Shown here piece by piece: positions 6,546 through 47,299 of a stretch of 64,000 nt of DNA. The first letter of the stretch is position 1, and every line of letters begins with the position of its first letter. The notes under the pieces were generated by a model. The model did not search any database, had not been told where the DNA came from, and worked only from the letters and a program-made list of their open reading frames with translations. Location of the stretch: positions 1-64,000 of the forward strand of contig JAUJON010000003.1 in assembly GCA_030447595.1 (NCBI GenBank), read 5' to 3'. This stretch comes from Thermosynechococcaceae cyanobacterium YX3bin19. GTDB taxonomy: Bacteria; Cyanobacteriota; Cyanobacteriia; Thermosynechococcales; Thermosynechococcaceae. Made by a program: the position numbers and the translations under genes.

Positions 6546-7559
6546 TTGCCAATCCTTTCGGCTACAGTAGCAACTATCTTCAGCCAAGCCACTATGAAAG
6601 CCAGTTCAGTTCTTTGTTTGGAAAATAAGAAGATTCTCGTTACAGGTGGTGCTGGTTTTCTTGGCCGTCAGGTCATTAGCCAACTGCAGCAAGCAGGGGC
6701 TGACCCCCACAAGATCACTGTTACTCGTTCTCAAGATTGCGACTTGCGCTCGCTAGAGAACTGCCAGCGAGCTGTGACCCAGCAGGATATTGTCATCCAC
6801 CTAGCTGCTCATGTCGGCGGGATTGGCTTAAACCAGGAAAAACCAGCAGAGCTGTTCTATGACAACTTAATCATGGGTGCTCAGCTGATTCATGAATCCT
6901 ACCAAGCTGGGGTGGAAAAGTTTGTTTGTGTCGGTACCATCTGCGCCTACCCCAAGTTCACCTCTGTTCCCTTCAAGGAGGAGGATCTATGGAACGGCTA
7001 TCCAGAGGAAACCAACGCGCCCTACGGCATCGCCAAGAAAGCCTTGCTGGTACAACTGCAAGCCTACCGTCAGCAGTACGGCTTTGATGGCATTTACCTG
7101 CTGCCGGTGAACCTGTACGGGCCTGAAGATAACTTCAACCCCCACAGCTCCCATGTGATTCCTGCCCTGATTCATAAGGTCCATGCAGCTCAGCAGCAGG
7201 GACAAAAGCAGCTGCACGTCTGGGGCGATGGTAGCCCAACGCGGGAGTTTCTCTACTCCGAGGATGCAGCCCGCGGCATTATCATGGGCACCCAGCACTA
7301 TAGCAGTCCTGAGCCTGTAAATCTGGGAACTGGGTACGAGATCTCCATTCGCCATCTGGTCGAACTGATTTGTGAGCTGATGGAGTTCTCGGGGGAGATT
7401 GTTTGGGAGACCGATAAGCCTAACGGACAGCCCCGGCGCTGCTTGGACACCCAAAGAGCGAAGCAAACTTTTGGCTTCACAGCCCAGGTTGATTTCAAGC
7501 AAGGGCTGCTCAACACCATCAACTGGTATCGCCAGTACGGCAATCAAGCAGATTCCTAG
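6546..7559 (+). CDS. fcl: GDP-L-fucose synthase; start likely at 6594 (MKASSV)
   Basis: 337 aa, ILVTGGAGFLGRQV...ICAYPKFTSVPFKEEDLWNGYPEETNAPYGIAKKALLVQ. Confidence 0.95.
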   Translation: MPILSATVATIFSQATMKASSVLCLENKKILVTGGAGFLGRQVISQLQQAGADPHKITVTRSQDCDLRSLENCQRAVTQQDIVIHLAAHVGGIGLNQEKPAELFYDNLIMGAQLIHESYQAGVEKFVCVGTICAYPKFTSVPFKEEDLWNGYPEETNAPYGIAKKALLVQLQAYRQQYGFDGIYLLPVNLYGPEDNFNPHSSHVIPALIHKVHAAQQQGQKQLHVWGDGSPTREFLYSEDAARGIIMGTQHYSSPEPVNLGTGYEISIRHLVELICELMEFSGEIVWETDKPNGQPRRCLDTQRAKQTFGFTAQVDFKQGLLNTINWYRQYGNQADS

Positions 7560-7603
7560 ATGAAACCATCAGCGATCTATGAGAGTCTGTGAGGAGTCGA
7601 TGA

Positions 7604-7744
7604 ATGAGGATCCTAAAGGGCCTGAATATCTATGAGGAAGTAAGTATTACTGGTCCCATCGGTTTAACTGGAGCCAAGGAAGCTAGTTTGAGGAAATTGG
7701 GAGCTATTGATACACCTACATCTCCACAGCTGCCGGGAAATTAA
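7604..7744 (+). CDS. possible short ORF (46 codons)
   Basis: ATG at 7604 to TAA at 7742-7744; MRILKGLNIYEEVSITGPIGLTGAKEASLRKLGAIDTPTSPQLPGN; could be a gene remnant. Confidence 0.25.
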   Translation: MRILKGLNIYEEVSITGPIGLTGAKEASLRKLGAIDTPTSPQLPGN

Positions 7745-7811
7745 CGGCTCCTTCGGTAACCTGCTGTACAGGGCTGAGAAAAGTTGCCTTACCGACACTG
7801 AGGCTCATAAT

Positions 7812-8636
7812 TTAGATGTTTTTGCCCATGCGGTTGAGCAGCTTGCGAATCAGCTCACCGTCCCTGGCCGCTAGACTATTGGCAAGATATACCTCCAAGT
7901 CCTGGCAAGCCTCACTCCAACGGCCCAACTGGTAGTAAAGAATACCGCGATCTCGCAGTTCTCCGACTGCATCGGGAACAATCAAGAGAATCCGCTCAAT
8001 TGCCGCCAGGCTTTTGGCCAACTGATTCTGGGTAAGGTAGATGTGCTTGAGATTTGTTAGCATCCGCACCAAAAATTGCCGGGGACCAATGGGCGCTAAA
8101 AAATCTGGTTGCAGTTCAATAGGCTGGCCGTAAATTTGAGAAAGCCGCTCTTGACAGTCTTGAGGAAAAAGAATTTCCCCATTGTGAAAAGCGTCCACAT
8201 AAAGCTCCATATCACCGTAGTTAGGGCGAATTAAGAAGTGACCCGGCATGCCAATTCCCACCATCGGAAAATCAAGCCGCTGAGCAATCTCCAGATAGAC
8301 CAAAGATAGAGCGATGGGAATGCCAGTGCGCCGGTCAATGACGTCATTGAGAAAGCTATTACGGGGGTTGTAGTAGTCTCCAGTGTTGCCAGTAAACCCC
8401 AAATCTTGATAAAGGTACTGGTTGATAGTCTGGATAATCCGCAGCGGGTAGGATTCTACGGGCAGGCGCTCCCGCACCTCCTCAGCCATTGTGTCCAAGG
8501 CGTTCAGGTAGCTTTCGACATCTAGGTCAAAATATTCCTCCTGAGCAATGTAGAGGGCCGCCGCTGCCAAGTTAATCTGAGCTTCAGGCTGATGAATAGC
8601 TTGATATAATTGCTGTCGAGCGAGGGGAAAGTCCAT
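7812..8636 (-). CDS. SirB1 family protein (transglutaminase-like/TPR)
   Basis: 274 aa, YYNPRNSFLNDVIDRRTGIPIALSLVYLEIAQRLDFPMVGIGMPGHFLIR. Confidence 0.92.
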   Translation of the reverse strand: MDFPLARQQLYQAIHQPEAQINLAAAALYIAQEEYFDLDVESYLNALDTMAEEVRERLPVESYPLRIIQTINQYLYQDLGFTGNTGDYYNPRNSFLNDVIDRRTGIPIALSLVYLEIAQRLDFPMVGIGMPGHFLIRPNYGDMELYVDAFHNGEILFPQDCQERLSQIYGQPIELQPDFLAPIGPRQFLVRMLTNLKHIYLTQNQLAKSLAAIERILLIVPDAVGELRDRGILYYQLGRWSEACQDLEVYLANSLAARDGELIRKLLNRMGKNI

Positions 8637-12349: not shown

Positions 12350-13330
12350 TCACTGGACAAATTGGGGCATGATTTCAGCGGCGCTAAACAAACCGTAGAG
12401 GCCTCGTTGGTGCAGCGCCACACCTGCTTTCAGATAACCAAAAGCAGGTCCACAGACGTTGGCTGCCATACTCGTTTCATCACCCAGGGTAAAGGTGTGG
12501 GTTGAAAGCTTGCCTTCAAAGGTGCGTCCTGTGACTTTAACGTGAGTGCTCAGGGGCTTTTTGGCACTGCGGGTATCGACTACCCCCCCTACAGTCACAC
12601 GATCGCGGGGGCAGACGCCTGCCAGTTCCAGCAGCACATCGTCAGCATGCTCCATCGTTTCCAGGGTGAGCAAACCGTTCGTTTGGTCTAGAAGCGCTGC
12701 CACTTCAGCATCGGTCATAGACCGAGCTTTCTCGACGCTGTAACCGGGCAAGTGGGCAATGTCTTCTCGAATCGTGGCCCGGTAAGCTTCCCAATTGGCA
12801 ATTCCCACACCGAAGGTAATCTGGACACTCAAGATTTCGGTAAACTTTGGGCGGCCAGAGCCGCTGCCGCTGTTAATAAACCCGGAGTCGCCCCACAGCC
12901 TGTCAGGTAGGTAATCCCGGCAGTCGCCAGATCTGATTGCATCTGCAACAACTGCTCCACAGCACTAGTGCGCTTTATGGCATCAACCAGGACGCCTCGC
13001 CAGCCTGAGCCAATGAACTGCTGGACAACAGAGGCGATAAAGGTATTGGGCAGATTGGGTAAGGCTAGAAAGTAACCGTCTGCCCTAGCCTGCTGGATCA
13101 GATCCTCAATGCTGGTGTGGCTTAGCGTCCCACCTAACTCCAGGTAGCCCAAGGAACCTTGAGACTGGTAAGTGGCGATCGCCTGAGCCGGATTGAGCCC
13201 CGCAGCTGCATAGGCATATCCCTTCTGGTCAGCTGCCGCTACCCCAGAGCATTTGCTGCTTCAGTAGTAAAACTTTTGCTGCTGCCTGGCCTAAACCGCC
13301 AATCCTAATACACCTACCCTGATAGGTGCC
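12350..13330 (-). pseudogene. bioU: saccharopine dehydrogenase-like oxidoreductase, resembles cyanobacterial BioU; frameshifted (5' limit approximate)
   Basis: Conceptual N-terminus [60 protein letters not shown] needs two frame shifts; it joins ORF 12829..13152 and then ORF 12350..12832 by a third shift. Confidence 0.7.
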
Positions 13331-36264: not shown

Positions 36265-37255
36265 CTAGCGGAACATACTACTCACGGAGCTATCTTCATG
36301 AACTCGCCAGATGGTTTCACCAATGATGGCGGCAACTGATAGGACTGTCAATTGCTCAAAGTAATTTTCTTCAGGTACAGGTATGGTGTTGGTGACAATG
36401 ACCTCTTCAAAAACACCACTAGACAAGCGCTCTATCGCAGGGGGAGAAGACTGCGTGAGTCGCACAGGCATAAACTTGCGCTGCTCCTTCTTGGCGAAGC
36501 AATCGAGCGGCTTCAGAAATCGTGCTGCCTGTATCAATCATGTCGTCCACAAGCACTGCTGTTTTGCCCACAACATCTCCAATCACATTCATGACTTCCG
36601 CAACATTGTGAACCTGACGGCGCTTATCAATAATTGCCAACGGTGCATCGTTTAACTTCTTAGCAAATGCTCGGGCTCGAGCCACACCCCCTACATCAGG
36701 GGAGACAACAACCACATCCGACAATTGTTTGTTTGTCAGGTAATCCAGCAGAGTTGGCGAACCATACACATGATCCACTGGAATATCAAAGTAACCCTGA
36801 ATTTGGGCAGAGTGCAGGTCCATAGCCAAAATTCGACTGGCTCCTGCTTGGGTAATTAGGTTGGCAACTAACTTGGCAGTAATCGATTCTCGACCTGCAG
36901 TTTTGCGATCAGCTCGCGCATAACCATAGTAGGGAATGACCGCTGTAATCTGACGTGCCGAGGCCCGACGACAAGCATCGATCATGATCAACAGCTCCAT
37001 CAGATGAGCATTGACCGGACGGCAAGTTGGCTGAATGAGATAAACATCACAGCCGCGAATGGATTCCTGAATTTGAACATAAAGCTCTCCATCCGCAAAT
37101 TGCTTACGCACCATTGGCCCTAAATCCATCCCAAGGTAGTGAGCCACTTCTTGAGAAAGTCTCTGATTTGCAAAGCCAGAGAATAATCTTAGGCGGTCAT
37201 GATCAGCAACAATTGGTGAAGTAGGCTGAAGAGTCAGAGTCACGGGCTGGATCAC
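36265..37255 (-). pseudogene. prs: ribose-phosphate pyrophosphokinase, single frameshift near 36440
   Basis: ORF 36419..37255 carries the N-terminal and catalytic part; ORF 36265..36537 supplies the C-terminus SPPAIERLSSGVFEEVIVTNTIPVPEENYFEQLTVLSVAAIIGETIWRVHEDSSVSSMFR. Confidence 0.9.
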
Positions 37256-37371
37256 AGCAGGTCCCCAAAGTGCTTTATGGCAATCTTAGCATTCTGGTTT
37301 TAAAGCTTGCTATTTTGATTGCTGTGAAATGCTTCAGCAAAACTGTCAGCACCTTTCCTTGTGAGTAGCTC

Positions 37372-37633
37372 TCAAGAGCGAGAGGGACGACGCCTCTGAA
37401 GAAATTCAGGAATATCAGGCCTTCCTTAGCTTTCGGATCAGGAACTGGGGTAATGTCTGGGGTTGAGGGACCGGAGCGTTTGTTTATTATGGTTCGCTCT
37501 GTCAATGGCGCTGGTTCTTCACGGTTGAAGCCTGTAGCAATGACAGTAATTTGGATCTCGCCTTGCAGCCTCTCGTCAATAACTGCGCCAAAGATAATGT
37601 TGGCACTTGGATCAACCACTTCATAAGACTAGC
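37372..37633 (-). pseudogene. ftsZ: FtsZ C-terminal fragment, also frameshifted near its end
   Basis: [33 protein letters not shown]; after a frame change [14 protein letters not shown]-stop (TGA at 37372-37374). Confidence 0.88.
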
Positions 37634-38212
37634 GGCGGCAGGTGGTAGTATACCTAGTACAGTCAACTGAGGAAGTTTTCCTGATTGCTGTAGCGTTGGG
37701 TAGCTCTTTAGAGGCGTGATGATTCCTTTGCTATCTAGTAGCCAAACCTTTGCTGCCTGTTTTGGGGAAACTTGGGAAGATAGTCGCTCAAAGTTACGGC
37801 TATAACCTGACCCAGGAACAACTGCGACTGGCTCACGTTCTTGCACTGAGACAGTTAATTGAGGAGGAAAGAGCTGACGCGTAACAGTTACTTGGTCAAC
37901 GGATACTCTTGATTTCAGTGTTTCGGTAATGGTCTTTGGCTGCAAACGAATTAAAGACTGGGGTAACGCCAGGGGAAGGGAGTTCTCAATAGCCGAGGTC
38001 GCAAGCAATTGGTTACCCTTAATTAACACTTGAGTGGGCTGATCAATAACCCACTCTATTGAGAGAGTAGCCCAAACAAGACCACCTGTTAAACCAATAA
38101 TAGCTAGAGTGCGCCAACCGGCTTGAATTAACTTCAATCGCCGCTGGTAACGTAGCTGTCTGCGCCGGTGCAGAACGGGGTCTAACTGTACGTCTGGTAC
38201 AACCTTAGTCAT
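37634..38212 (-). pseudogene. ftsQ: FtsQ, C-terminally truncated
   Basis: FtsQ/POTRA-type sequence (VLIKGNQLLATSAIENSLPLALPQSLIRLQPKTITETLKSRVSVDQVTVTRQLFPPQLTVSVQEREPVAV), then runs straight into ftsZ-derived DNA. Confidence 0.8.
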
Positions 38213-38511
38213 TCCACCTACTGACTGAGTAGTACAAAAATAATGATTGATCTAAATCAAAAATTCTCAGCTTCCAGTTTTTATTGAATCCACTGAGTTT
38301 TATTCATGGATGAACCTTGGATGGGCATGCACTTTGTTAAAGAGCTGTAATAACTGGGCCAACATCCCAGCTAGGGAACTATTTCATGCAGTGTTCAGTC
38401 GTCCTCCAAGGTCGAGCTAGGGCTTCATTAAGTTGAACTAAGGCTCTTTAGTGAAATGATAAGATACCCGAAGCTTAATTCGCCCATTTGTACACATAAC
38501 AGAGTTGCTCC

Positions 38512-39180
38512 ATGGTTTCTTTTGAGCCTACCCGCTTCTTTATTTGGCTGTTATCCTCTCTTGCATGGCCGACAATGGTTGCATATATCCTGGTTCTTCC
38601 TAAAGCTGTTCAAGCACAGACACCGGCAGCAGGAGGCTCTACCCAGGCTCAGCCAACCAATCTTAATACACTAAGTCCCTCTGCTCCTGCTGGTAGTTCA
38701 TTCACTCTCAAAGGTAGTCAACAGTTAATGGCTGAAGCGGAAAGCGCGATATCAGCTCAGAACTATACGCTGGCGATTAAGAAACTACAGGAGGCTCGTC
38801 AGGTTTCGAATCAACTTTCTAACTCTTATCAAGAGCTAAGTGCAAGCTTTTTGGGGGTTGATAATGAGGCATCTAGTCGCCTTCGTGGTAGAGCGCTAGA
38901 AACGGCTCAGATGCGGGATCAAGCAACCTATCAACTGGCTTTAGTATACCGATCGCAAAACCAGCCTCAGCAAGCAGTACCACTTTTGGTGCAGATCATT
39001 CGTAGCCAGCAACCTACCCGTGACTTGGGCCAAAAAGCTTATCGGCAACTCCTGGAGCTAGGTTTTGTCGATGTGCCCTATCCAAATCCAAAACAGCAAA
39101 ACAGACCGTCAACTCCCCCTCAGCCACCTGTACAGGCAGCTCCTCAACCGCCTGCTCAACCGCCTGCTCAATCACAGTAG
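38512..39180 (+). CDS. hypothetical exported TPR-like protein
   Basis: 222 aa, signal peptide, helical repeats, PQPPAQPPAQ tail. Confidence 0.65.
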   Translation: MVSFEPTRFFIWLLSSLAWPTMVAYILVLPKAVQAQTPAAGGSTQAQPTNLNTLSPSAPAGSSFTLKGSQQLMAEAESAISAQNYTLAIKKLQEARQVSNQLSNSYQELSASFLGVDNEASSRLRGRALETAQMRDQATYQLALVYRSQNQPQQAVPLLVQIIRSQQPTRDLGQKAYRQLLELGFVDVPYPNPKQQNRPSTPPQPPVQAAPQPPAQPPAQSQ

Positions 39181-39416
39181 TCAGCCGTTTTAACTGATTG
39201 ATCACTGAGCTCTCCTACCCTGGAGGATTTAGTCTACCTAGACGAAAATCAGGACGTTGCATTAATTGATTAAAATTTGGATCATTAACCGTCAAGTCCC
39301 TTGAATGCAAGCGGACTTGCTAAGCTGAAGAAGCATCCAGCGAGCCATGAGCAAAGTGAACTCTGCTGGTAAGTCTGAGGAATTCGATTCAATGTCAGCG
39401 TGAATGAGGAACGAAT

Positions 39417-39692
39417 ATGATTAGCCCGGATGAAGTTAAAGGAATGATCCAGGCTGCTCTACCTGATGCTAAAATCCATGTTCAGGATTTGACAGGTGGT
39501 GGTGATCACTATCAAGTCGTAGTTGTTTCATCTCTTTTTGAAGGCAAGAGACTGGTTCAACAACATCAGCTAGTCTATAACGCAGTGCAAAAGGCTATGT
39601 CCAGCGAACAAATCCATGCTCTAGCACTCAAAACTTACACTCCTCAGAGCTGGATGGTATCTGGTCAAGAATTTGCCCAAAGCCAATCTTAG
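39417..39692 (+). CDS. BolA family protein
   Basis: 91 aa, [51 protein letters not shown]. Confidence 0.95.
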
Positions 39693-39780
39693 GAATCAGC
39701 CCTTGTTAGGCTTGTACTCGTTAGTACAGCCAACCTAAGTTTCAAAATCCCATTACTTCATTGAATTTAGGAGAAGACTT

Positions 39781-40104
39781 ATGACTCCGGAACTGAAAGA
39801 GCGAATTGATCACTTGGTGCAGCAGAACAAGATTGTCGTGTTTATGAAGGGCTCTAAACTGATGCCCCAGTGCGGCTTCTCAAACAATACCGTTCAGATT
39901 CTCAATACATTGGGGGTTCCTTTTGAAACCGTTGATGTATTAGAGGATTACGAAATTCGCCAGGGAATCAAGGAATACTCTAACTGGCCGACCATTCCTC
40001 AAGTCTATGTTGATGGTCAGTTTGTCGGGGGTTCAGATATTCTGATTGAGCTTTACCAGCAAGGCGAGTTGCAACAGATGGTTGAAGTTGCTCTAGCTTC
40101 TTAA
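39781..40104 (+). CDS. grxD: monothiol glutaredoxin (Grx4 family)
   Basis: 107 aa, VVFMKGSKLMPQCGFSNNTVQIL...NWPTIPQVYVDGQFVGGSDI. Confidence 0.96.
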   Translation: MTPELKERIDHLVQQNKIVVFMKGSKLMPQCGFSNNTVQILNTLGVPFETVDVLEDYEIRQGIKEYSNWPTIPQVYVDGQFVGGSDILIELYQQGELQQMVEVALAS

Positions 40105-40141
40105 AAATTAAAGCCTAAGCTTCGATTCCCCTCAAAAGAGT

Positions 40142-42404
40142 CTAATTGAATTGGGGGGATTTTTTGTGCTGACTTTTTGCCTTAGCCCTGCCAGTACCTC
40201 CTGGAATACCCGCTATTCTTAAAATGTCTACAGGGGTTTCACAGTAGGTTGGCAGGCCAAAGGTGGCGGGACTAACTGGGTTTTGGTAGCTAAAGTGGCG
40301 GTAGTTCATACAGAAGCGATCCCAAGTAGCCATTTGAATTTGGAAGAGATTAATAAAGAAATTGGCTAACCAGGGAGACAGGTTAACCCGCCAGTAGATT
40401 CGTTTGCTTAAATAGGTACAAAATTCTTCAATACACTGATCGAGAGTCACTCGTTGATTACCCAGAACTAGTTTTTGGGGTACGAACTCCTGGGGCTGCT
40501 CGATCAAGTACTTAACAACCTGGGCAATATCATGAGCGTGAATAAAGTGAAAACTACCTTCTGCCTTTAAAAAGCGAATCAGGTCAATCCAGGACAGAAC
40601 CTCTGGAAGTCCCTTTGTTAGGTGTGAGTAGGGCTTTTGCTCGTCCCCACCTAAAACCAAGGTTGGAAAAAGTGTTGTAATTCTATGAGCGATCGCCAGC
40701 TGAGACAGTTGTTGTAGACAAATGTATTTTGAGCGAACGTAATCAATCCCAATTTCCCCTGCCTCCTTTAGGGGTTCACCATCCTGGCCCAGAATACTGG
40801 CAGTCGAGAAATAGAGTACTTGCTGGCAAGCACTCGGGCTGAGTAGATTGAGTAGCCGCAAGGTAGCATTGACATTAACCTCAACGACCTCCTGTGCACC
40901 GCCCCAGGCAGTGGCAACGAGCACGGCACAGTTAATAGTTTGCAGTAAATTCTGGAACTGCTCTATCTCTCGTAAGTCTGTTTAGTGCAGATCATTCGTT
41001 TTAACTAATTGATTACTGAGCTCTCCTACCCTGGATGATTCAGTCTACCTAGACAAAAATCAGGACGTTACTTGGGTCCCTTGAAAAAGCTTATCATGAG
41101 CAACTCTGCTGGTAAGTCTGAGGAATTCGGTTCAATATTGTCGATGTGCCCGGATGAAGTTAAAGAGAATGATCAGGCTGCTCTACCTGATGGAAACAGC
41201 AAAACAGACTATCAAGTCAGTTGTTTCATCTCCCTGGTTCCCATCAGCGTTTATAACCAGTGCAAAAGGACAGGAACAAATCCATGCTCTCCTCTTATAC
41301 TCCTCGCCTGCTCAATTTGCCCAAAGTAGTCAGCCCTTGTTAGGCTTGTACTCGTTTAACTGATTAATCCCATTACTTCATAAATTTGGGAAGACTTATG
41401 ACTCCGGAACTACCCTGGATGATTATGAAGGGCTCTAAACTGACCAGTGCGGCTTCTCAAACAATACGGTTCAGATTCTCAATACCTTGGGGGTTCCTTG
41501 GGAAACATTGATGTATTAGAGGATTACAAGATCAGGATCATTAACCGTCAAGTCTATGTTGATGGTCAGTTTGTTGGGGGTTGATATTCTGATTGAGCTT
41601 TACCAGCGGAGTTGCAACTAAGCTGCTTCTTAAAAATTAAAGAAGCATCCAGCTAATGGAATTGGGGGGAGCCTTTTTGAGCAAAGTGAACTCTGCTGGT
41701 AAGTCTGAGGAATTAATTGGGTTTTGATAGCTAAAGTGGCAATGTCAGCATGAATGAGGATTAATAAAGAAATGGCTAGCCAGGGAGACAGGTTAACCCG
41801 CCAGTAGCTCCGTTTGATAGGTACAAAATTCTTCAATACACTGATCGAGAGTCACTCGTTGATTACCCAGAACTAGTTTTTGGGGTACGCTCTACCTCGA
41901 TGCTAAACCTGGGCAATATCCGTGAATGAAGTGTTCAGGATTTGAACTGACAGTCCCTTTGAGAGGTGTGAGTAAGGCTTTTGCTCGTCTCCACCTCATC
42001 TTTGCCGCAAGTGGGACAATTGTTGTAGACAAAGTTGTTTCATCTCTTTTTTTCCCGGCCGAGGATACTGGCAGTCAAAAATAGAGACTTGCTGGCAAGT
42101 ACTGAGGCTGAGGAGATTGATCAGCATCAACGTTGACCTCAACGACCTCCTGTGCACCGCCCCAGGCAGTGGCAACGAGCACGGCACAGTTAATAGTCTG
42201 CAGTAAATCCTGGAACTGCTCTATCTCTCGTAAGTCTGCTTGTAAGAGGGTGATACCCGGACGGGTTTGATAATCAAACTTGAGTTTGCTAGGATTCCTG
42301 ACCACCAGGAATAATTCGTGCTGGGTTTCCTGGATCAAGGATTCAGCAATGTAGTGACCAATGCAGCCACTGGCACCCGTGATCAAAATCCGCTTTGGAG
42401 GCAT
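40142..42404 (-). pseudogene. NAD-dependent epimerase/dehydratase, interrupted by a 1,258-bp mosaic block
   Basis: N-terminus MPPKRILITGASGCIGHYIAESL in ORF 42075..42404; remainder in ORF 40142..40924; shared AVLVATAWGGAQEVVEVNV in both. Confidence 0.85.
40981..42238. repeat. scrambled mosaic copy of about 38.99-40.98 kb (two interleaved threads)
   Basis: Blocks match by eye, e.g. 41817-41889 = 40412-40484 and 42136-42238 vs 40878-40980 (two mismatches seen); 41678-41714 = 39348-39384. Confidence 0.9.
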
Positions 42405-42470: not shown

Positions 42471-43660
42471 TTAGGCACGAGCTGACAGGAGCTGATCGGC
42501 CTGTTTGACCGTTTCAAAAAAGCGAGCCCCATTTTCCTCTGGAGTGCCGGGCAAGACACCATGGCCGAGATTCATAATATGGCCTTGATTACCGGCTTTG
42601 CGAATAATATCCAGAACCCGATCGCGAATAAAGTTTTGGAGCAAAAGTACGCCGGGGTCCATGTTGCCCTGGACTTTCATAGCTCTAATCTTCCCCTAGC
42701 CTCTGCCATATCTACAGTCCAATCTAGGCTGATAATGTCAACACCGGATTTTGACATTCGTTCCAGTAAACCGGCACTGCCACTAACCAAGAGAATAAGT
42801 GGCGTGGCTGGGTGAGTCGCTTTCACTTGCTGCACGACTTGCTGCTGATACGGTAAAACAAAAGTTTCGTAATCTTGAGGACTTAACTGACCGGCCCAGG
42901 AATCAAACATTTGTACCACCTGGGCACCACTGTCAATTTGATAGCGGACATACACCGCGATCGCGTCAGCAAGCTTGCCCAACAGTTGATGCAGCATCGA
43001 GGGTTCAGAAAAGGCCATTCCTTTAATAATCGAGTAAGTCTTGGACCCTTTCCCCTCAACGGCATAAGCAGCTAAGGTCAAGGGGCACCAACAAAACCCA
43101 ACACTGTTGATTGATACACACCCACTTCCTGGCGCAGTGCCTGCAAAATTTCTCGAATAAATGGAAGAGATTTTTCTGGGTCTAGGGGATGCAGATTATC
43201 CACCTGCTCCTGACTGCGAATCGGCGGACTGATAATCGGCCCTTTGCCTTCAGCAATGTCCATTTCAATACCCAGTGCCGGCAGCGGTGTAACAATATCG
43301 TGAGAACAAAATCACGCCGTCTGGTTGGAATGCCCTCCAGGGTTGTAACGAGACTTCAATTGCTACCTCTGGGATTTCCGAGCGCTCCGGAATGAGGGGT
43401 ACTTGTCCACGCAGATCTCGGTAGGCTTTCATATAGCGACCCGCTTGTCGCATCATCCACACAGGGGGGGCGATCAAGCATTTCGCCTCAGGCAGCTCGC
43501 AGCAGACGAGGTAAGTTAGGGGAGTGGGGAGTTTCTCTCCTGCGGAGGAGAGGTCAGTTGCTGTCTCCAAATCGCCGTGAGGAGCATTGTGAGGGGCAAA
43601 AACGGAGGAAGCATACCTTGCTTGGGTTTCGTCTCCATTTTGCCTTGATGATCCAGCCAT
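42471..43660 (-). pseudogene. hemE: uroporphyrinogen decarboxylase, multiple frameshifts plus N-terminal insertion
   Basis: Four consecutive ORFs read [20 protein letters not shown] / [32 protein letters not shown] / [26 protein letters not shown]...[11 protein letters not shown] / [13 protein letters not shown]...[14 protein letters not shown]. Confidence 0.93.
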
Positions 43661-45151: not shown

Positions 45152-45299
45152 TATCATGGAGCGTCTAAGTCCCTGATGCTGAATGTAAGCGTTGCGACTG
45201 AAATCTAGATCAGCAAATTCTTACATTAAGACAACAAACGACTGTTGACTGTATCTGAATCAATTAAGTGCTCACAGGTTGAACATAGGAGGCCCGGTC

Positions 45300-47299
45300 A
45301 TGGCAATGAACGTTACCCAAAAACTGATCAAGTCGCACTTGGTTTCCGGTGAAATGGTGCCGGGATCAGAGATTGGTCTCAAAATTGACCAGTCACTGAC
45401 TCAGGATGCTACGGGAACTATGGTCATGCTTGAACTCGAAGCTATGGGCATCGACCGGGTTAAAACCGAGCTTTCTGCTCAATATGTCGATCACAATCTT
45501 TTACAAACCGATTATAAGAATGCGGATGACCATCTATTTCTGCGTTCCGCCTGTCAACGCTTTGGTATCTGGTACAGTCGGCCCGGCAACGGTGTGAGTC
45601 ATCCTGTCCACATGGAACGATTTGGTATTCCCGGCAAAACGCTAATTGGATCAGACAGCCACACCCCCTTTCCAGGTGCTCTGGGGAATGTTGACGTTTG
45701 GTGCCGGTGGTATTGATGTAGCCATGGCTATGGCCGGAAAACCGATGTTCGTCAAAATGCCAAAGGTTCTAGGCGTCAAAGTCACCGGCAAATTGCCCGA
45801 TTGGGTGAGTGCCAAAGATGTTGTCCTAGAGATGTTGCGGCGCTACGACGTCAAAGGCTGTCGGAGCATGATCGTTGAATATTACGGTCCGGGTCTTGAA
45901 CAACTGAGCGCTATGGACCGGCATGTCATTGCCAATATGGGCACCGAACTGGGGGCGACAACAACCGTTTTTCCGTCTGACCAGGAGGTCAAGCGCTTTC
46001 TCACGGCTCAGGGCCGGGGTGAGGATTGGGTAGAGCTAGTTCCTGATCCAGGAGCTGAGTATGACATTGATGACGAAATCAACCTTTCTGAGCTAGAACC
46101 CCTGATTGCTTGCCTAGCAGCCCAGGCAATGTAGTAACGGTTAGAGAAGTACAAGGCAAGCCAATCAATCAGGTTGTAATCGGCTCGTCTGCTAACCCTG
46201 GTTTACGCGATTTCTGGATTGTTAGTGAGATTGTCAAAGGACGTGTCACTCATGATCGGGTCTCTTTTGACGTCAACCCGACCTCGCGCCAGATAGTTGA
46301 GACTTTAGCGGTGATGGATAACGCCTTTCTCAATCTCATCCATGCGGGGGCACGTTTTCACCAAGCCGGTTGTATGGGTTGCATCGGCATGGGACAAGCT
46401 CCGGCATCCAATCAGATCTCGCTGAGAACCGTGCCGCGTAATTTCCCTGGGCGCTCCGGTAATGCTGATGATCAAGTGTATCTGTGTAGTCCGGAAACGG
46501 GAGCTGCGTCAGCTCTCACAGGAGAAATTACCGACCCGCGTGACCTGGAAAAAATTTATGGCATGACTTATCCAAAGTTTGTGTCGCCAGAAAAAGAGAT
46601 CGTTAATACTGAAATGCTCGTACCGCCCCTAGAGGATGGTAGCTCTATCAAATTGGAAAAAGGCCCAAATATTAAATCCTTCCCAGAGTTTGGGCTGTTG
46701 CCTGATGAGGCTTCTGTCCCGGTGGTGTTGAAGGTAGGTGACAATATCTCCACGGATGAAATCCTGCCGGCTGGAGCGCGTGTCCTTCCCTACCGAAGTA
46801 ATATTCCCGGGATCAGTGATTTTGTTTTCTCCGTGGTTGACGAGACTTTTTCGCAGCGAGCTAAAGAAGCTCAAGAAAAATACGGGGTCACGTTGTCGTT
46901 GCCGGTAATAACTACGCCCAGGGTTCGAGCCGAGAGCATGCTGCGATCGCACCCAAATATCTAGGACAGGTGGCTGTGCTAGCTAAATCCTACGCTCGGA
47001 TTGGTTGGCAAAATCTCGTTAACTTCGGCGTCATGCCTCTAGAGTTTGTCAACCCGGAAGACTACGACACCATCGACCAAGGTGACGACTGGAGATCATT
47101 GGCTTACGGAGTGCATTGACAGAAGGAAAGCCCCATTTCAGTAAAAAACAAAACAAAAGAACTCACCTATTCAATGACGCATAGTGTCAGCCCTCGTCAG
47201 GTGAAAATTCTGCTCAATGGCGGGCTGATCAATGAATTCAAACAAAATTTGAATCTAAAGGAAGACTTGGGGCTTGAGGCAAGTGTTTCTGAAAGGTAA
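45300..47299 (+). pseudogene. aconitate hydratase, several frameshifts
   Basis: ORFs 45279..45716, 45646..46134, 46110..46964 and unlisted pieces to TAA 47297-47299 read as one protein: LIGSDSHTPFPGALG / MLTFGAGGIDVAMAMAGKP / GNVVTVREVQGKPINQVVIGSS / HVVVAGNNYAQGSSREHAAIAPKYLGQVAVLAKSYARIGWQNLVNFGVMPLEF. Confidence 0.9.

Follow-up and report, generated by a model that had tools for sequence, protein, structure and literature searches.

Within the window, i.e. the whole stretch of DNA that was analysed, 64,000 nucleotides long, a block of 1,258 bp (positions 40981-42238, + strand) is found along a series of genes ordered as prsA, (ftsZ), ftsQ, a TPR-like ORF, bolA, grxD, epimerase and hemE. 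The order is the same in a relative, the genome G001. Names are based on NCBIfam models for some of the genes, and on reading of the sequence for all the others. The bolA-family gene (39417-39692, + strand) matches the NCBIfam model PRK11628, below its curated cut-off, and is followed by a grxD-like glutaredoxin gene (39781-40104, + strand), which shows 92% identity to a G001 ORF over 110 aa and takes its name from an earlier, sequence-only reading of the same DNA. These two copies, both intact, lie within the region from which the sequences of the block are drawn.

An NAD-epimerase-like gene, on the - strand, is split into a 3' part at 40142-40980, matching residues 60-317 of the relative's ORF, and a 5' part at 42239-42404, separated from the remainder by the block. 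By leaving out 40981-42238, the two parts join in frame to give 334 aa without a stop in between; if the block is retained, a stop is met at residue 109. The corresponding frame of G001 is unbroken across 327 aa. Comparison with close relatives had been proposed in the sequence-only reading: in G001, the nearest relative, the counterparts of 40980 and 42239 adjoin, with no block between them, in the arrangement TPR-bolA-grxD-epimerase-hemE. When GTDB contigs were scanned for the epimerase, the relatives were placed among cyanobacteria and no assembly of the same species was revealed, the best protein identity being at most 63%.

Composition of the block

The block was analysed by a Viterbi copy model with a jump cost, in which 40981-42238 is explained from source sequences contained in 38500-40980. 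The resulting score was 688, as compared to values between -64 and -109 for ten shuffles, and between -42 and -65 for nine other 1258-bp stretches of the window. According to the model, the block is pieced together from two threads, both running forward and drawn from 38985-40980. The leading thread proceeds from 39186 to 40980 (+ strand), through intergenic DNA, bolA, grxD and the 3' part of the epimerase, in 24 main pieces for 969 aligned bases; its offset is 1811 at first and falls to 1258. The lagging thread proceeds from 38985 to about 39539, and its source (about 38985-39540, + strand) includes the end of the TPR-like ORF (ORF 38512-39180), intergenic DNA and the start of bolA; it is made up of 16-17 pieces, 224 aligned bases in all, with an offset which is 1996 at first and rises to 2512, and its pieces keep their order in 136 of 136 pairs.

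Two monotonic series on the same strand had been noticed in the sequence-only reading; they are confirmed by the copy model, and their coordinates were correct within about 3 bp. Also present are the exact 73-bp block 41817-41889, identical to 40412-40484 (+ strand), which is the leading thread's longest exact piece, and the source segments described as used twice, found at 41102 and 41689, and at 41219 and 42033. The longest piece of the lagging thread, 41678-41713 (+ strand), equals 39348-39383, a source which the leading thread also uses at 41102. The end of the leading thread, 42123-42238 (+ strand), corresponds to 40865-40980 with 6 substitutions and runs into single-copy sequence at 42239; the right end of the block meets 42239 exactly as the source end 40980 would be expected to. 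A near-repeat of 119 bp is present at the ends of the block.

Comparison of the leading thread to its source revealed 45 substitutions over 969 bases (4.6%; 924 identical), 31 of which are transitions. Among the 37 substitutions falling in coding sequence, 22 are located at third codon positions (p = 0.001). Thirty-eight of the substituted sites could be aligned to G001, which carries the source base at 16 of them, the thread's base at 13 and neither at 9; about 3 matches to the thread's base would be found under random error (p = 7e-6). In contrast, the lagging thread shows only 2 substitutions in 224 bases (222 identical), a difference which is nominally significant (p = 0.007), although the identity of this thread is partly a matter of ascertainment, its short pieces being found through exact match. 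On the basis of the substitution rate, the transitions, the third-position bias and the bases shared with G001, the leading thread looks like the allele of a second strain, rather than the DNA next to it copied with errors. No other copy of this diverged allele is contained in the assembly, which is 74% complete.

Features such as an adjacent second copy on the same strand, correctly joined at its right end to single-copy DNA, and a divergence of about 5% with third-position bias, which could fit a diverged paralogue, may also be produced if 39186-40980 had really been duplicated in tandem long ago, the copy having been eroded by deletions and substitutions and later patched from the neighbouring source. 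Such an origin is considered very improbable. A duplication is expected to show one constant or stepwise offset, and the block contains two diverging series. The patches would have been taken from places 200-1,240 bp off the homologous position, with their order perfectly kept and at a constant rate, and stretches deleted from the leading thread are almost always replaced by lagging pieces, about one third to one half their length. In addition, the duplication would need to break the epimerase in place. Gene conversion was rejected as a source of the patches, since it would act at homologous positions, and they derive from non-homologous offsets.

Switching between the two threads

The positions reached on the two threads at the 31 switches are linearly related (r = 0.9989, slope 0.354): while one thread is used, a proportionate length of the other is passed over. 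When the two source stretches, which share no homology in the aligned register, are aligned globally, the lagging partner of each switch is predicted with a mean deviation of 3.8 bp. By shuffling the lagging stretch, a mean deviation of 12.5 bp was obtained, and none of the 300 shuffles was as close as the real sequence (best value, 3.94 bp). The test was performed under six scoring schemes and for three choices of end points, and its result depends on end points derived from the block itself. With a longer lagging end point (39600) the fit is lost and is no better than that of a straight line, and a control in which the switch points were jittered by 5 bp is not clearly separated from the real path. 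Of 24 gap-free switches, 21 share at least 1 base, the shared sequence being 1-7 bp long. This microhomology would be predicted equally by a consensus graph and by a template-switching polymerase; the lockstep of two templates along an alignment is expected only from a consensus step.

Short shared sequences at the joints are the feature for which a replication-based event has to be considered, i.e. serial template switching between two templates, of the kind attributed to microhomology-mediated break-induced replication (MMBIR), for which "Mechanisms for Complex Chromosomal Insertions" is said to be an example. Similarly to MMBIR products, the block is composed of short templated pieces, joined at microhomologies of the size given above. 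Unlike them, it draws in turn on two templates which advance strictly in step with each other, and its geometry is that of a computed alignment. About 31 switches would be needed in 1.26 kb, between two forward-only templates and at a fixed ratio of 0.35, at points lying near a global alignment path which a polymerase has no means to track; furthermore, both templates are expected in the genome of the same cell, and the leading one would have to be a diverged allele absent from this assembly, which is 74% complete. An MMBIR-like rearrangement is even less probable than a decayed duplication. To our knowledge, no biological process leads to two templates being used in forward lockstep with alignment geometry.

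A block in single molecules, if true, would represent a new type of rearrangement, an alternative raised in the sequence-only reading. It would imply that in some cells a polymerase alternated about 31 times between forward templates offset by hundreds of bases, the templates being two alleles or sister copies. We give this the same very low weight as MMBIR. The proposal found no support, and both the lockstep and the alignment path point to an artefact.

Surrounding consensus and origin of the block

The draft genome that contains the block is made up of 446 contigs (3.87 Mb in total), and several faults are found in the vicinity of the block. At 37626-37659, about 1.66 kb present in G001 are absent, which hold the last part of ftsQ and the greater part of ftsZ; the gap, a neighbouring consensus fault located 3.3 kb upstream of the block, removes the first ~356 of the 440 residues of the ftsZ frame, and no other ftsZ copy was found in the assembly. 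Since ftsZ was detected in 13 of 14 control genomes, and at the matching place in G001, this loss is best read as an assembly error. The gap and the block are suggestive of two slips, one forwards by about 1.7 kb at 37.64 kb, the other 3.3 kb later and backwards by about 1.8 kb, from 40980 to 39186. Aconitase (45279-46964) is broken over at least three reading frames, and prsA (36268-37276) and hemE (42483-43660) are each frameshifted relative to G001. Open frames with 200 aa or more account for 55% of the bases in sampled contigs larger than 9 kb, as compared to 74% in 78 related cyanobacterial loci; the low coverage is as expected from uncorrected indels, for which long reads are the most likely source.

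The allele-like character of the leading thread, the lockstep along an alignment path and the damaged consensus around the block argue for an artefact of assembly and consensus building, in a cyanobacterial genome assembled from a metagenome at low quality; so do the epimerase, which is whole once the block is left out, and the lack of the block in G001. A probability of roughly 94% is assigned to this explanation, judged on sequence features. An artefact had been favoured in the sequence-only reading too, as the outcome of misregistered reads; the analysis supports that view and makes it more specific, by pointing to a strain allele and to weaving along a computed alignment between unequal stretches.

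The block would then be a spurious second pass over 39186-40980, taken from a diverged allele and interleaved with pieces of 38985-39539. The sequence of one strain would stop at 40980; a second strain, differing by about 5%, would supply the sequence which restarts near 39186 and continues beyond 42239, so that a 1.8-kb overlap at ~95% identity would be written twice rather than collapsed, i.e. a false heterotype duplication. In addition, the consensus step would have forced the 555 bp of 38985-39540, a sequence out of register, into alignment with about 1,600 bp; its path may have hopped between the misaligned sequences wherever a base or two were shared, with 1,258 bp of interleaved fragments as the result. 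The reads were probably noisy long reads; this read type, the mixture of strains and the exact software step are inferred.

A chimera formed in the tube, by whole-genome amplification or library preparation, with one read dominating a low-coverage consensus, would likewise produce, where the consensus is poor, a sequence which the cells do not contain. Amplification chimeras usually carry one or few joins, often inverted, and here about 31 joins in lockstep, all on the same strand, have to be accounted for, which makes this the least probable of the explanations considered.

In a study on diploid vertebrates ("Widespread false gene gains caused by duplication errors in genome assemblies", Genome Biol. 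2022, PMC9516828; the term is also used in PMC8081667), false heterotype duplication is described as a known assembly error, in which two diverged alleles, placed side by side in one scaffold, generate false second gene copies. The block is similar in that its second copy appears to be a diverged allele in the same scaffold, as suggested by the rate of substitution and the third-position bias. It differs in that the copy would be a strain allele from a metagenome, interleaved with misregistered sequence, a combination which the accessible part of PMC9516828 does not describe.

The block is almost certainly not a real biological feature, nor a new DNA rearrangement, and its value is that of a warning example, not of biology. 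The deposited genome carries a broken epimerase and extra shredded pieces of bolA and grxD, and it lacks most of ftsZ, which is best read as a false absence. Lockstep threads, switches near an alignment path and allele-like substitutions in one of the threads provide a signature by which drafts may be screened for consensus weaving.

Search for similar blocks

No comparable woven block was found elsewhere in the 64-kb window, and no second one of similar size in 1.26 Mb of the same genome, scanned in stretches which include the window, some short contigs being read as N. The candidates in contigs C305, C308, C317, C320, C322, C331 and C350 were rejected as ordinary tandem paralogues or duplications with a constant offset, and those in C311, C313, C330 and C353 as internal repeats of protein type. 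A small possible weave, unproven, is located at 4400-4740 of contig C345, with offsets drifting through 229, 282, 341, 361 and 402; it opens a badly frameshifted ndhF-like gene, and might be a second artefact of this kind.

Some additional observations concern single sequences. Within the window, a BioU-like ORF at 12350-12832 contains the second half only (profile positions 165-323), the first half being out of frame, probably because of a frameshift. In contig C305, the region 12624-13050 is an ordinary tandem duplication with a constant offset of 1288. In contig C313, the region 6750-7950 is an array of units of about 126 bp, probably coding for a repeat protein.
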